Part shown: positions 2,817-13,991 of the stretch, piece after piece
How the letters are laid out: the number at the start of each line of letters is the position of its first letter
Numbering within the stretch: the first letter of the stretch is position 1
NCBI RefSeq assembly: GCF_000963005.1
Contig: NZ_JZHZ01000007.1
Coordinates: 2,901,545 to 2,946,054, forward strand
Source: Xanthomonas sp. GPE 39
GTDB lineage: Bacteria; Pseudomonadota; Gammaproteobacteria; Xanthomonadales; Xanthomonadaceae
DNA length: 44,510 nt
Direction of reading: 5' to 3'
The notes under the pieces: generated by a model
Databases searched by the model: none
The model's input: only the letters and a program-made list of their open reading frames with translations
What the model was told of the DNA's origin: nothing
Made by a program: the position numbers and the translations under genes

Positions 2817-2862
2817 TGGTGGGCCCACCAGGATTCGAACCTGGAACCAAAGGATTATGAGT
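2817..2862 (-). pseudogene. 3' half of a split tRNA gene (CAU anticodon)
   Basis: Read on the minus strand this is the anticodon loop CTCATAA, anticodon-stem strand TCCTT, variable loop, a perfect T-arm (CCAGG / TTCGAAT / CCTGG), acceptor strand TGGGCCC, discriminator A and encoded CCA. The bases before the loop do not make a D-arm or acceptor strand, so the 5' half is absent here. It pairs exactly with the 5' half at 13951-13991: anticodon stem GAGGA with TCCTT, acceptor GGGCCTA with TGGGCCC. It does not fit the 5' half of the intact tRNA at 13800-13876. It is therefore the displaced 3' half of a host tRNA, cut by an island at the 11-bp core GGATTATGAGT (2852-2862). Confidence 0.85.
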
Positions 2863-3031
2863 TCGTCGCCTACGTGCTATGCCTAGGGAAATCAAGCATA
2901 GGGGAGCGTAAGCTACGGAACAAAAAAGTAAGCTGCGACAGTAGTTTAGCGCAGCTTGGCGAAGGAGGGCAAAACTAAGCCCTGTACCGCTGGAGTACCG
3001 CTCAGAACGGAATGTTCTCGTCCCACGGGTA

Positions 3032-3829
3032 CTACGATGAGGCCTGCTGCTCTGCTGCTTTGGCCTGAGTCTTGATCTTCATCTCCAGCGCCTTGATGAA
3101 GCGGACGGACGCCGCAACGTGATTGAAGATCAGCAGGCTTTCCTCGTAGTTCAGGATCGGGTTGTCGTGTGCAAGGCTCTTGTTGTTGCGCACGTCATTG
3201 AAGGCTTCCAGGACCGAGATACTGGACTTCAAGATGCGTTCGGTCATGGCCGACTCAAGGTGACTGCCTTCCCGGAGCGCCTTCACGTACTCGCCGAAGA
3301 CGCTGTGCAACGGCTTTTCACGAGTAATCGTGATGCCATGCGGCTCGCATGTCACCCGGATGAACTTGTTAACGAAGGTATGCAGTCGATCCAGCCCGCC
3401 CTCGGGCTGGTTCTTCTCGATGGCTTCACGGACGTGCTCTGCCACCACCTCGAAGTCCCGCTCGTCAGCGATGGCGATCAGCGCATCCAGTTCGGCTACC
3501 GGCTGGTCGCTGAGAAGACGCTGGGCAACTTTTCGGCAGTCGTCGATCAGCAGCGGGTTGCTGTCGCCGAAGCACTGCTCATCGGTCGCATACTCGATCA
3601 GCCCGCCGATGACCCGCCCCACGGCATGATTGGCGTCCACATCCCAAAAGGTGCGCATCCGATTGGCCTTAGATGTGCCCCGTGCCTTGTACCTTTCGGC
3701 GTCAATCTCAACCCTGTAATCATCGAAGAAGTCACCGAAGGTGCGGTCAGAGAAGTTCAGGACATAGCCGCCGCCCATCCCAAGCAGCTTTTCCAACTTT
3801 CGACGCTCACTAGCACTCAGATCGGACAT
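3032..3829 (-). CDS. Abortive-infection protein with Abi-C domain
   Basis: This is a 265-residue protein from the ATG at 3829, chosen because AGGGGA lies just upstream; a longer reading to 3907 would overlap the restriction gene. The C-terminal third (about residues 170-250) matches the Abi_C type: LHSVFGEYVKAL, then SISVLEAFNDVRNNKSLAHDNPIL. The R-x6-H motif (Arg 214, His 221) resembles the active motif of HEPN-like RNases, so a toxic RNase role in phage defence is a reasonable inference. The N-terminal part is not recognised and may sense infection. It follows the restriction enzyme gene by about 28 bp and is probably the third gene of a methyltransferase-nuclease-Abi operon, which suggests a back-up suicide function. 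Confidence 0.75.
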   Translation of the reverse strand: MSDLSASERRKLEKLLGMGGGYVLNFSDRTFGDFFDDYRVEIDAERYKARGTSKANRMRTFWDVDANHAVGRVIGGLIEYATDEQCFGDSNPLLIDDCRKVAQRLLSDQPVAELDALIAIADERDFEVVAEHVREAIEKNQPEGGLDRLHTFVNKFIRVTCEPHGITITREKPLHSVFGEYVKALREGSHLESAMTERILKSSISVLEAFNDVRNNKSLAHDNPILNYEESLLIFNHVAASVRFIKALEMKIKTQAKAAEQQASS

Positions 3830-3857
3830 ACGTTCCCCTATGTCACCGCTAACGCCA

Positions 3858-4598
3858 TTAACCCAACCGTGCGGCCTCTGCCGCAACGTGACCAGCCAGG
3901 GCTGCAACGAACGTCTTAAGGCTGGTCATCGAAGACAGCTCTGTGAAGTTGCCAGTGTTCACCGCGCTGCGCTCCGCAGCGATGACAGCAGCGGTGGTGT
4001 AAAGCTGTTCCTGAACCAGCCGCTGACACAGCAAGTCATACCGCGTGAGATACGAAGCTCCCTTGAATTCCTCGAACACCGGGAAGTGTGATGACGAGTC
4101 ACGCACGGGCCTGCGGGACTCCGGCGCATCCTCGACCATCATCAGCCAACCAACGAACGGACGTGGCTGCTTGCCGAATGCCTCTTCCCGATAGGCCGTC
4201 CAGAGATCATGGGCCGTCCCGATGGCTTCCTCGGTTCGGTTATTGAAGTTATTGCTGAACGATGGGCCGACATGGCTTTTCAGCTCGATGGCTGCGATCA
4301 GCTCGCCCTTGTAGATCACCAACAGATCCCACAGCTTCGTGGGACGGAAGTATCCGGGCAGGGTCAGCATCGCCCGGTTCTGGTGAATCTCGGCATGGGC
4401 CAGTCCGTTGGCCTTGATGACATCGAGCACCAAGGCCAAGAATCCATCCATGTTCTTACCACCAGTGACGCCAGCGCGTTCTCCTTGGTCGGCCTTGCCC
4501 GACTCAATCTGTTTTTGCCTTGCCGCTTCGCGGTTACCCCAAAACGCCTTCACGGCCTCGCGGGCTTTCTGTTCGTAGTTGACGAGATCGAGCGCCAT
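3858..4598 (-). CDS. PaeR7I/XhoI-family type II restriction endonuclease
   Basis: The protein has 246 residues, the length I recall for PaeR7I and XhoI, which cut CTCGAG. Family-like segments include the start [34 protein letters not shown], and a PD-(D/E)xK-type core [34 protein letters not shown]. Here Asp of WDLL, and Glu and Lys of IELK, are the likely metal-binding and catalytic residues. The ATG follows the methyltransferase TAA directly (TAAATG), with GGAG upstream, so translation is coupled. The cognate methylase must protect the host. No controller (C) protein gene is seen. The family assignment is firm; cleavage at CTCGAG is inferred from the family. Confidence 0.88.
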
Positions 4599-12630: not shown

Positions 12631-13725
12631 TCATGGATTTCCTGTCTTTTTCGCGACCTGATCGAGCTTGCCCACCAAGTCCTCCGCGCGCAGGTGAGTG
12701 TATCGCTTGAGCATCTGCATCGACTTGTGGCCGCTGATGGCCGCGACCTCCTGGTCGGACAAGCCTGCTTCCACAAAGCGGCTTACGGCTTCGTGACGCA
12801 GATCGTGAAAGCGGAAGTCCGGCAAGCCGGCATCCTTCTTGATGCGCATCCAGATCGGATTGAACTGATAAGCCCGGCGCTTGTTGTCACGTCCGGGCTC
12901 ACCGAAAAAGATCAGGTCGGTATCAATTGGGCGCACCGGGTTGTTCAGCGCCTCTCGAAACAGCCGGGTTGCCTCGACCGTCAGAGGAACGGTACGCGAC
13001 ATCGTGTTCTTCGTTTCCTGGAGGCGTGCCACGCGCCGGTCAAGATCGACCTGGCTTCGGCGCAAGCCCGTAATCTCCGAAGAACGCATTCCTGTTTCGA
13101 GCGCGATGCGCACGATCCAGCCGAGCATCGGGTTCGAGTGAGCATCGACCGCGACCATCAAGCGGATTTCTTCCTCTCGAGTGAGCCGTCGATCCCGTCC
13201 TGGGCTAGGCGCTGGACGACGAATGCTTTGCACGGGGTTGTAGGTCAGGCCGATGCCCCATTCCTTGATCGCTACGTTGAACAGGTGGCCGAGCAATGCG
13301 AGATCGAGACGGACCGTGTTGGGCGAACGGGGCTTGGGGGCGGGCTTGCCCTTGGCGTCTTTGCGATCCAGGCCAGCGAGCCGGTCGTCGCGGTACTTGG
13401 CGATCAGTTCCGGCGTCAGTGCGGCCAACGAATACCTGCCCAGATTCTGCATCAATGGCTTCGCGTGTCTCGCGTCGCTGTCGGCCGATGCCTGGCGCTT
13501 GGTTGGGGAAACTTCGGAAAGATAGCGCTTGAGTGCGTCCTCGATGGTCATGCGTTCGGACGGCGCACGCTGGATATAAATGCCGCGCACCATTTCGTCT
13601 TCGGTGCGCCGCGCCCAATCCTCGGCGTCGCGTTTGGTGCGGAAGGTCTTGGCTGTGGCCGGCCATCCCGTCTTGCGGATGAGCGCCTTCCATGTGCCTG
13701 AGGGTGTCTTGACGATGGTCGCCAT
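12631..13725 (-). CDS. Tyrosine integrase of the island
   Basis: The phage-type integrase has 364 residues from the ATG at 13725 (MATIVKTPSGTWKALIRK), with GGAG about 7 bp upstream. It has an N-terminal AP2-like arm-binding region, a SAM-like core-binding domain (about 60-160) and a catalytic domain. Active-site residues are visible: Arg in LETGMRSSEITGL, His and Arg in HDLRHEAVSRF, His in ISGHKSMQM and Tyr in KRYTHL. It starts about 75 bp from the 3' end of the island-borne tRNA and points away from it, the usual integrase-tRNA layout. It probably made the insertion that split the host tRNA, recombining at the anticodon-loop core GGATTATGAGT. Confidence 0.92.
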   Translation of the reverse strand: MATIVKTPSGTWKALIRKTGWPATAKTFRTKRDAEDWARRTEDEMVRGIYIQRAPSERMTIEDALKRYLSEVSPTKRQASADSDARHAKPLMQNLGRYSLAALTPELIAKYRDDRLAGLDRKDAKGKPAPKPRSPNTVRLDLALLGHLFNVAIKEWGIGLTYNPVQSIRRPAPSPGRDRRLTREEEIRLMVAVDAHSNPMLGWIVRIALETGMRSSEITGLRRSQVDLDRRVARLQETKNTMSRTVPLTVEATRLFREALNNPVRPIDTDLIFFGEPGRDNKRRAYQFNPIWMRIKKDAGLPDFRFHDLRHEAVSRFVEAGLSDQEVAAISGHKSMQMLKRYTHLRAEDLVGKLDQVAKKTGNP

Positions 13726-13799
13726 TCGGTTACTCCAGAACAGTGCGCATGTAACACCACTGTACCGAAACTGTACCGACGCGCGAGCGCAAGCAAAGG

Positions 13800-13876
13800 T
13801 GGTGGGCCCAGCAGGACTTGAACCTGCAACCAACGGATTATGAGTCCGCTGCTCTAACCAATTGAGCTATAGGCCC
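13800..13876 (-). tRNA. Complete tRNA with CAU anticodon (tRNA-Ile2 or Met), island-borne
   Basis: The 77-nt gene folds perfectly: acceptor GGGCCTA with TGGGCCC, D-stem GCTC/GAGC, anticodon stem GCGGA/TCCGT around loop CTCATAA, T-arm GCAGG/CCTGC with TTCAAGT, discriminator A and encoded CCA. CAU fits either elongator Met or Ile2 (lysidine-modified, reading AUA). The GGGCC acceptor end is more like Ile2. It lies inside the island, 75 bp downstream of the truncated tRNA at 13951-13991. It differs from the split tRNA at paired positions in both the anticodon stem and T-stem, so it came from another source and likely replaces the broken host gene. Confidence 0.93.
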
Positions 13877-13950
13877 TTTTTGCTTTTTTGATGAGACGGA
13901 AGGGTAACCGTCCCACTCAATTCAGCCTCGCCGATCCGGCCTCGATCAGT

Positions 13951-13991
13951 GGATTATGAGTCCTCTGCTCTAACCGTTGAGCTATAGGCCC
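13951..13991 (-). pseudogene. 5' half of the split host tRNA gene (CAU anticodon)
   Basis: On the minus strand this is the acceptor strand GGGCCTA, D-arm GCTC-AACGGTTA-GAGC, anticodon-stem strand GAGGA, loop CTCATAA and TCC. After that the sequence departs from a tRNA: no T-arm and no acceptor 3' strand. Its missing part is at 2817-2862; joined, they give a flawless 76-nt tRNA. The host tRNA promoter should lie to its right, so a transcript would pass through this half before reaching the intact tRNA at 13800-13876. Confidence 0.85.

Follow-up and report, generated by a model that had tools for sequence, protein, structure and literature searches.

Islands integrated beside tRNA genes, as collected in the Islander database, are described there as carrying a fragment that restores the target gene, a 3' fragment in 3760 islands and a 5' fragment in 159 (PMC4383910). 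A different arrangement was reported in 2024 for some actinobacteriophages, which integrate via a core of about 10 bp in a host tRNA gene, do not rebuild that gene and need their own cognate tRNA, as was shown with phage mutants and plasmids (PMC10865867). The term used in that report is tRNA-dependent lysogeny, the phages include Fionnbharth, LeBron, OneUp, Mollymur and Gaia, and tRNA-Ile2-CAT is among the targets; it leaves open how far the principle has spread beyond actinobacteriophages and how it relates to fragment-restoring systems. The same report cites the Lj965 prophage of Lactobacillus johnsonii, where the host tRNA gene is replaced by that of the element, and tRNA genes of Sinorhizobium meliloti have been described as substituted by those of phage-related sequences (PMC11476347). 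A further paper saw no such mechanism in the prophages that it studied and states that the group had described it earlier (PMC12429752). Here, a window of 44,510 nucleotides from Xanthomonas sp. GPE 39 (NCBI RefSeq assembly GCF_000963005.1, contig NZ_JZHZ01000007.1, positions 2,901,545 to 2,946,054) was analysed. It contains an island of about 11.1 kb (2852-13961, core to core) that has very probably split the single tRNA-Ile2(CAU) gene of its host and supplies a complete tRNA on which the cell would depend.

The features at the centre of this arrangement are as follows.

13951-13991, minus strand: 5' half of the host tRNA-Ile2(CAU) gene, 41/41 identical to the native genes of genus-mates
2817-2862, minus strand: 3' half of the host tRNA-Ile2 gene, core included, 46/46 identical to the native genes
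13951-13961, minus strand: attL core ACTCATAATCC, the same 11 bp as at 2852-2862
2852-2862, minus strand: attR core ACTCATAATCC, the same 11 bp as at 13951-13961
13877-13950, minus strand: left end of the island, a 74-bp spacer with an A-rich leader just before the tRNA, in the same place and of nearly the same length in 10/10 elements
13800-13876, minus strand: complete island-borne tRNA with anticodon CAU (ARAGORN), 77/77 identical in the Comamonas (L098) and Lampropedia (L099) elements introduced below
12631-13725, minus strand: tyrosine integrase of 364 amino acids, its ATG picked by eye (PF00589, 1.2e-32 on the reading 12631-13737)

Read along the minus strand, the native upstream DNA is followed by the half at 13991-13951, 74 bp, the tRNA at 13876-13800, the integrase at 13725-12631, the cargo and the half at 2862-2817, and the target site (attB) of this integrase-bearing element is located inside the host tRNA gene. 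The 11-bp core common to both halves is ACTCATAATCC on the minus strand and GGATTATGAGT on the plus strand. The conserved native upstream DNA (about 14000-14100) is still joined to the 5' half. The positions of both halves and of the intact tRNA, the strand of the halves and the 11-bp core are all as an earlier note on this DNA had given them. On the window ARAGORN calls only the intact tRNA (CAT) and none at the attL or attR junction. Joining the halves, which amounts to excision in silico, yields 76 nt that ARAGORN calls a tRNA, and the 12 pairs between the halves (7 in the acceptor and 5 in the anticodon stem) all form, 10 as Watson-Crick and 2 as G-U pairs, which bears out the cloverleaf expected in that note. 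Its claim that pairing is specific to these two halves stood only in part: the cross-hybrids (host 5' with island 3' half, and island 5' with host 3' half) are worse, but each fails in one pair of 12 and not wholesale, the former is still called a tRNA by ARAGORN, and the 3' halves from Pseudomonas and Marinobacter hosts pair with the window 5' half no less well. Unlike classical tRNA-restoring islands, the element is without a fragment able to rebuild its target gene.

The two halves belong together because the joined 76-mer is the exact intact gene of genus-mates: 17 of 19 genomes of the genus have it, as does G020, a member of the same family (18 of the 20 genomes checked). The exact native gene also stands intact in loci of Xanthomonas massiliensis, X. 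populi and Xanthomonas sp. Leaf148. The island-free state is represented by G002, which has the intact native tRNA at the same locus with near upstream DNA that is 82% identical; the upstream flank 14216-20907 (6.7 kb) is 89.7% identical to the G002 flank of the same locus, and about 2 kb of G002 DNA between its two aligned pieces is absent from the window. The island tRNA at 13800-13876 is 89.6% identical to the native tRNA and, judged by these comparisons, is foreign to the host. A search of the 20 genomes for the window integrase (matches to E 1e-80) found it in the window's genome only, and on this search the idea that genus-mates share the island was rejected. In other hosts of the element family described below, the joined host gene was likewise found in relatives, at 77/77 in 1 of 18 Pseudomonas relatives (99% in 4 more) and at 77/77 in 4 of 18 Marinobacter relatives. 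The comparison with related strains that the earlier note had proposed therefore identifies the joined halves as the native gene, and the tRNA at 13800-13876 is not native there.

Other arrangements were observed at the tRNA-Ile2 locus, including those of the two same-genus exceptions. In G011 (L243:6535-17535) the native gene has been split and replaced by a different island, which has a complete CAU tRNA of its own towards its right end: a decayed native 5' half (94% over 36 nt) lies at 1046534, the different complete CAT tRNA at 1056054 and the native 3' half at 1057489. In G001 (L093:8555-8887), as well as in G022, G024 and G038, the anticodon loop is interrupted by about 250 nt. The intron-like insertion of G001, the sole genome tested, matches the group I intron model with 32.9 bits, under the gathering score of 50 (E 9.4e-7). 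A group I intron was also considered as the cause of the window split and rejected, the halves being 11 kb apart with an integrase between them. A mirror layout is present in G012 (L079:5257-15653) and G006 (L080:4607-15922), where the native 5' half is at the left and an intact native tRNA lies about 10-11 kb away at the right end, directly after a coding region about 25% identical to the window integrase; there the element seems to supply the 5' half. In G004 (L083) and G010 (L084) a pair of complete native-type tRNA-Ile2 genes is spaced 3-4 kb apart, each gene preceded by DNA like that of the native locus, and one copy in G004 is changed (97% identical).

Decoding of AUA codons requires an Ile2-type tRNA. 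The genome contains 50 tRNAs by RF00005, all on contig 1, and every one was typed by ARAGORN. The CAT anticodon occurs three times, in the island tRNA, in L009 and in L030, the last two of which we take from their sequences to be elongator-like and initiator-like Met tRNAs, respectively. The island tRNA resembles native Ile2, differs from L009 and L030, and is assigned to Ile2 and not to Met. Because the full typing reveals no other, the island tRNA is, on this count, the sole Ile2-type gene of the genome, as the earlier note had supposed, and the host tRNA-Ile2 gene is single-copy, as tRNA-dependent lysogeny demands of its target. Each of the 10 genomes with the same anatomy has exactly two matches to the Ile2 anticodon-arm pattern GAGCNNNNGACTCATAATC (the broken host half and the island tRNA), and four out of four single-tRNA relatives have one. 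A slightly wider pattern detected one Ile2 anticodon arm in 20 of 22 further genomes, the exceptions being G057 and G075; the other similarity matches that were retrieved proved on typing to be tRNAs for Lys, Arg, His, Pro or Trp. In both exceptions a truncated host tRNA lies beside a second complete CAT tRNA: tRNA-Ile2 is broken in the T arm and the complete tRNA follows shortly downstream (G075, L265:3712-3958; G057, L266 about 4787-4984, minus strand). In G057 an open reading frame (ORF) with a tyrosine-recombinase-like motif (by regular expression only) comes after the second tRNA. These two may represent further independent replacements.

The integrase was used to collect a family of elements: the best 80 of 374 relatives were kept, which gives 81 loci with the window. 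In 10 of the 81 the anatomy is that of the window: the host 5' half is broken, a complete tRNA-CAU follows 77-78 bp past the host CATAA, and the integrase comes next. These replacers are the window and the elements of an uncultured Comamonas (L098), Lampropedia (L099), Crenobacter (L100), a gammaproteobacterial metagenome-assembled genome (MAG; L102), Pseudomonas (L104), a Nevskiales MAG (L105), a Marinobacter MAG (L106), Thiohalocapsa (L107) and a Hydrogenophilus MAG (L112), and they are spread over the beta- and gamma-proteobacteria. The host 5' half differs by host. The window, Comamonas and Lampropedia have one and the same island tRNA, and those of the other elements match it at 88-97% identity, so that across the ten elements the intact tRNA follows the integrase and the broken half the host. 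In 8 of the 10 (7 of the 9 besides the window) the host 3' half was recovered, each time with an intact core before it, and it is on the integrase contig in the window, Comamonas, Pseudomonas and Thiohalocapsa; none was found for Lampropedia or the Nevskiales MAG, in which the contig stops 4.6 and 7.6 kb, respectively, past the integrase. Each host's own 5' and 3' halves pair with 0 mismatches of 12 (8/8), and host 5' with island 3' halves with 1-4 mismatches of 12 (8/8). The split gene, the complete island tRNA, the lack of a rebuilding fragment and the co-inheritance of tRNA and integrase can be read from these genomes. The idea of the earlier note, that the island destroys the host tRNA and brings a whole replacement, is supported by the intact native gene of relatives, the lack of another Ile2 gene and the nine further elements of the same anatomy. 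Relatives with no tRNA at the locus, relatives with the island tRNA as native gene and extra Ile2 copies, each named in that note as speaking against it, did not appear.

A single complete tRNA upstream and no broken half characterise 65 of the 81 loci, 3 of them in named Xanthomonas, and these loci would use the fragment-restoring mode; 6 more have no tRNA within 1.5 kb upstream and are kept in the denominator. Among 41 other CAT loci, the tRNA is complete and without mismatch in 40 and has one mismatch in L101. A displaced 3' fragment was seen in few single-tRNA loci (L103, L145, L108, L111 and perhaps L138), and those of the three named Xanthomonas loci were not found in the DNA examined. 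Two matches of the duplicate scan, L120 and L130, were discarded as two complete tRNA-Lys genes side by side. The sequence GATTAGTCGAGG at the left end of the L104-L107 group was considered as a vestige of an old 3' half, since it resembles the L103 3' half; it could equally be a core-binding arm of the integrase and is not claimed.

The following mechanism is proposed. The tyrosine integrase would recombine a core of about 10 bp within the anticodon loop of the only tRNA-Ile2(CAU) gene of the host; integration leaves, as the sequence shows, a dead 5' half and a dead 3' half. The attP site brings no rebuilding fragment. Instead, the island has a complete tRNA-CAU in the same orientation, 74 bp inward from attL and immediately ahead of the integrase, with which, as comparison of the elements shows, it moves between hosts. 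Transcription of the island tRNA would start either at the host tRNA promoter, which is retained ahead of the broken half, or at a weak promoter within the spacer, and the transcript would be processed, receive lysidine from TilS and read AUA codons. We infer that the island tRNA is both expressed and essential, in which case the cell would be viable only with it present or after a precise excision rebuilding the host gene. Because precise excision would rebuild that gene, as the earlier note had pointed out, a toxin-free addiction is predicted only against decay or deletion of the replacement tRNA, the latter being expected to be lethal, and not against clean excision; such dependence would protect the left end of the island from deletion.

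Several points weigh against this account. A consensus scan finds no sigma-70 promoter near the island tRNA, and the alignment of the ten spacers reveals no conserved RNA fold. The sole copy was established by full tRNA typing in the window genome, and in the nine others by pattern and similarity searches, in which a strongly diverged copy could go unnoticed. MAGs or uncultured assemblies represent five of these nine replacer hosts, and the 3' half is on another contig in 4 of 8 (Crenobacter, L102, Marinobacter and Hydrogenophilus). The L102 element, with its 3' half on another contig, has a right end unlike any of the others, that of the window included; the remaining right ends belong to shared types. 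The island 5' half pairs without mismatch with the host 3' half in Hydrogenophilus, and so do some halves from different hosts. Finally, L101 (Sediminihaliea) has the island backbone, with 70-73% DNA identity in the longer alignable parts, and no host half was found; with an integrase 85% identical and a complete CAU tRNA at L101:9851-9927 it was left unclassified, and possibly it has lost the host half or uses the classical mode. Concerning the spacer, a hairpin that looked conserved by eye was rejected as the ten-spacer alignment gives no consensus fold; six spacers folded singly have z-scores from -2.7 (window) to -0.3, and the A-rich leader makes up 6 of the 12 invariant columns. The consensus scan found no terminator around the island tRNA.

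The alternative that survives best accepts the anatomy and holds the island tRNA to be silent or non-essential, with AUA read by another tRNA. The missing promoter signal favours it, but the 50 typed tRNAs include no Ile(UAU), their one further Ile tRNA having the anticodon GAT; the genome has a TilS gene; and the island tRNA is more conserved than its surroundings, being 77/77 identical to those of Comamonas and Lampropedia while about 4 kb around is 90-92% identical (chance about 4e-4 and 1.6e-3, independence assumed); this alternative is considered improbable. Still less probable is an ordinary fragment-restoring island, in which the intact tRNA would be the native gene rebuilt at attL and the halves would be left over from other events. 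It has in its favour the classical look of an integrase directly beside an intact tRNA, the 65 loci without a broken half and an ordinary 3'-end duplication at the tRNA-Ile2 locus of G017, but the native sequence of the genus is that of the joined halves, and in the ten elements the intact tRNA goes with the integrase and not with the host. Just as little credence is given to the tRNA and spacer being a separate, older insertion outside the mobile unit: no more than 115 bp lie between the starts of the host half and of the tRNA, and a separate event is conceivable in one genome, but tRNA type, spacer length and integrase recur together in 10/10 elements from different hosts. Of the 9 others, 7 can be aligned across the spacer and on into the integrase, and in L105 and L112 the alignment begins at about the tRNA. 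The least credible alternative, that the halves, unmutated in the window, form a working tRNA by trans-splicing and make the island tRNA dispensable, is at odds with the changed 5' half beside the separate island of G011, and we know of no bacterial tRNA trans-splicing of such a kind. Split tRNAs are known in archaea (PMC3293823).

Besides the integrase, the following features were recognised on the island.

11305-12156, minus strand: HTH_36 protein (PF13730)
9953-10822, minus strand: type IV secretion system (T4SS) protein (PF07996), which we take to be VirB5-like from its family
8116-9201, minus strand: TrbL/VirB6-like protein (PF04610)
6376-7056, minus strand: NikA/MobC-like mobilisation protein (PF21983, PF05713)
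4599-6338, minus strand: type II DNA methyltransferase (PF07669; PADLOC MTase_II 1.5e-280)
3858-4598, minus strand: XhoI-family restriction endonuclease (PF04555 1.7e-106; PADLOC REase_II 5e-138)
3032-3907, minus strand: Abi_C-domain protein (PF14355)
2863-3000, minus strand: right end of the island, similar in relatives up to the core (sequence comparison)

The Pfam scan covered 10 window ORFs, 9 of them on the island and one without a family. Integrase, T4SS, TrbL and MobC-like genes were recognised, and the same scan of the 9 island ORFs found no relaxase, coupling protein or VirB4 and no phage structural families (small ORFs and PHROGs lying outside the scan). The conjugation gene set looks incomplete; the island is integrative and probably conjugation-derived. 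Its right end is 95% identical to that of Comamonas, 69-71% to those of Thiohalocapsa, Hydrogenophilus and Pseudomonas, and 72% to that of the single-tRNA sister L103. The restriction-modification stretch is 94% identical over 4.4 kb to a Crenobacter contig, reaching the right end, and the XhoI-type pair may add the usual stability to the island. A plasmid home of the element was considered and rejected: 2786 plasmid records match the integrase, 7 at 60-80% identity and the rest below 60% (plasmid records only). Directly after the 3' half, a second integrase (1429-2703, minus strand) has its parts in different ORFs, and after it comes an ORF (542-1402) identified by eye as an IS3-like transposase; a second island in the same tRNA has probably left these remnants.

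The integrase tree requires five changes of the replacement label, at least four of them forced by well-supported branches, and none of 500 shuffles was as low; since five label changes are needed, a single origin of the replacement mode is not claimed. Single-tRNA sisters are located among and around the replacers (e.g., L103 with L106, support 98/93), and three of them, in named Xanthomonas, have exactly this tRNA gene as their site, in intact form. Whole-gene replacement would have arisen repeatedly at the single-copy tRNA-Ile2 gene. Because the integrases of the window, Comamonas, Lampropedia and Crenobacter form one clade (support 99/90), the element appears to have crossed between gamma- and beta-proteobacteria. 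A broader proposal is put forward only tentatively and with more doubt than confidence: carrying a whole tRNA may free conjugation-type islands from having to match the host halves and let one element lineage enter hosts of different classes, its placement in cis may let the host promoter drive the replacement by reading through the broken half, integrase lineages may have switched repeatedly between the two modes, and replacement may have had several origins at this gene.

A mobile island can, on this evidence, swap the only host copy of an essential tRNA gene for a foreign one, with the host presumably dependent on it for one codon. A family outside the Actinobacteria and apparently outside phages, which includes both modes (10 replacers in 81 loci), opens the transitions between modes and the host range to study, and bears on both questions left in the text of PMC10865867, the spread of the principle and its relation to fragment restoration. 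Mapping of islands from a tRNA and a fragment of the same tRNA, in the style described for Islander, may miss or misjudge such islands.

The principle itself is not new, having been published for phages as tRNA-dependent lysogeny (PMC10865867). As described there, a tyrosine integrase acts at a short core (8-11 bp in the listed cases) in a host tRNA, the gene is not rebuilt, a cognate tRNA is carried on the element, and close relatives that rebuild the gene exist, all of which applies to the present family. The differences are that those elements are temperate phages of Actinobacteria, whereas the present one is an island with T4SS and mobilisation genes in beta- and gamma-proteobacteria, and that the Fionnbharth tRNA overlaps an opposite-strand gene and has its own promoter, whereas the tRNA here, located 74-75 bp inside attL, has the same orientation as the host promoter and the integrase as its neighbour. 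Because nothing phage-like was found on the element, the island works like tRNA-dependent lysogeny but is not a member of it as defined. The S. meliloti sequences (PMC11476347) and Lj965, likened here by their descriptions only, resemble it in that the tRNA of an element replaces a host tRNA gene and differ in being prophages or phage-related sequences in other hosts. With the islands of Islander (PMC4383910) it shares a tyrosine integrase beside a tRNA, a crossover in the anticodon loop and a displaced fragment that marks the far end; those islands, as described, rebuild the target with a fragment of their own, whereas here there is none and a whole tRNA is supplied. In a partial literature search, mostly of titles and the beginnings of abstracts, no report of whole-tRNA replacement by non-phage islands was recognised. 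What is new compared with these systems is the replacement by apparently non-phage islands bearing T4SS and mobilisation genes, the position of the tRNA beside the host promoter, and the presence of both modes in one integrase family.

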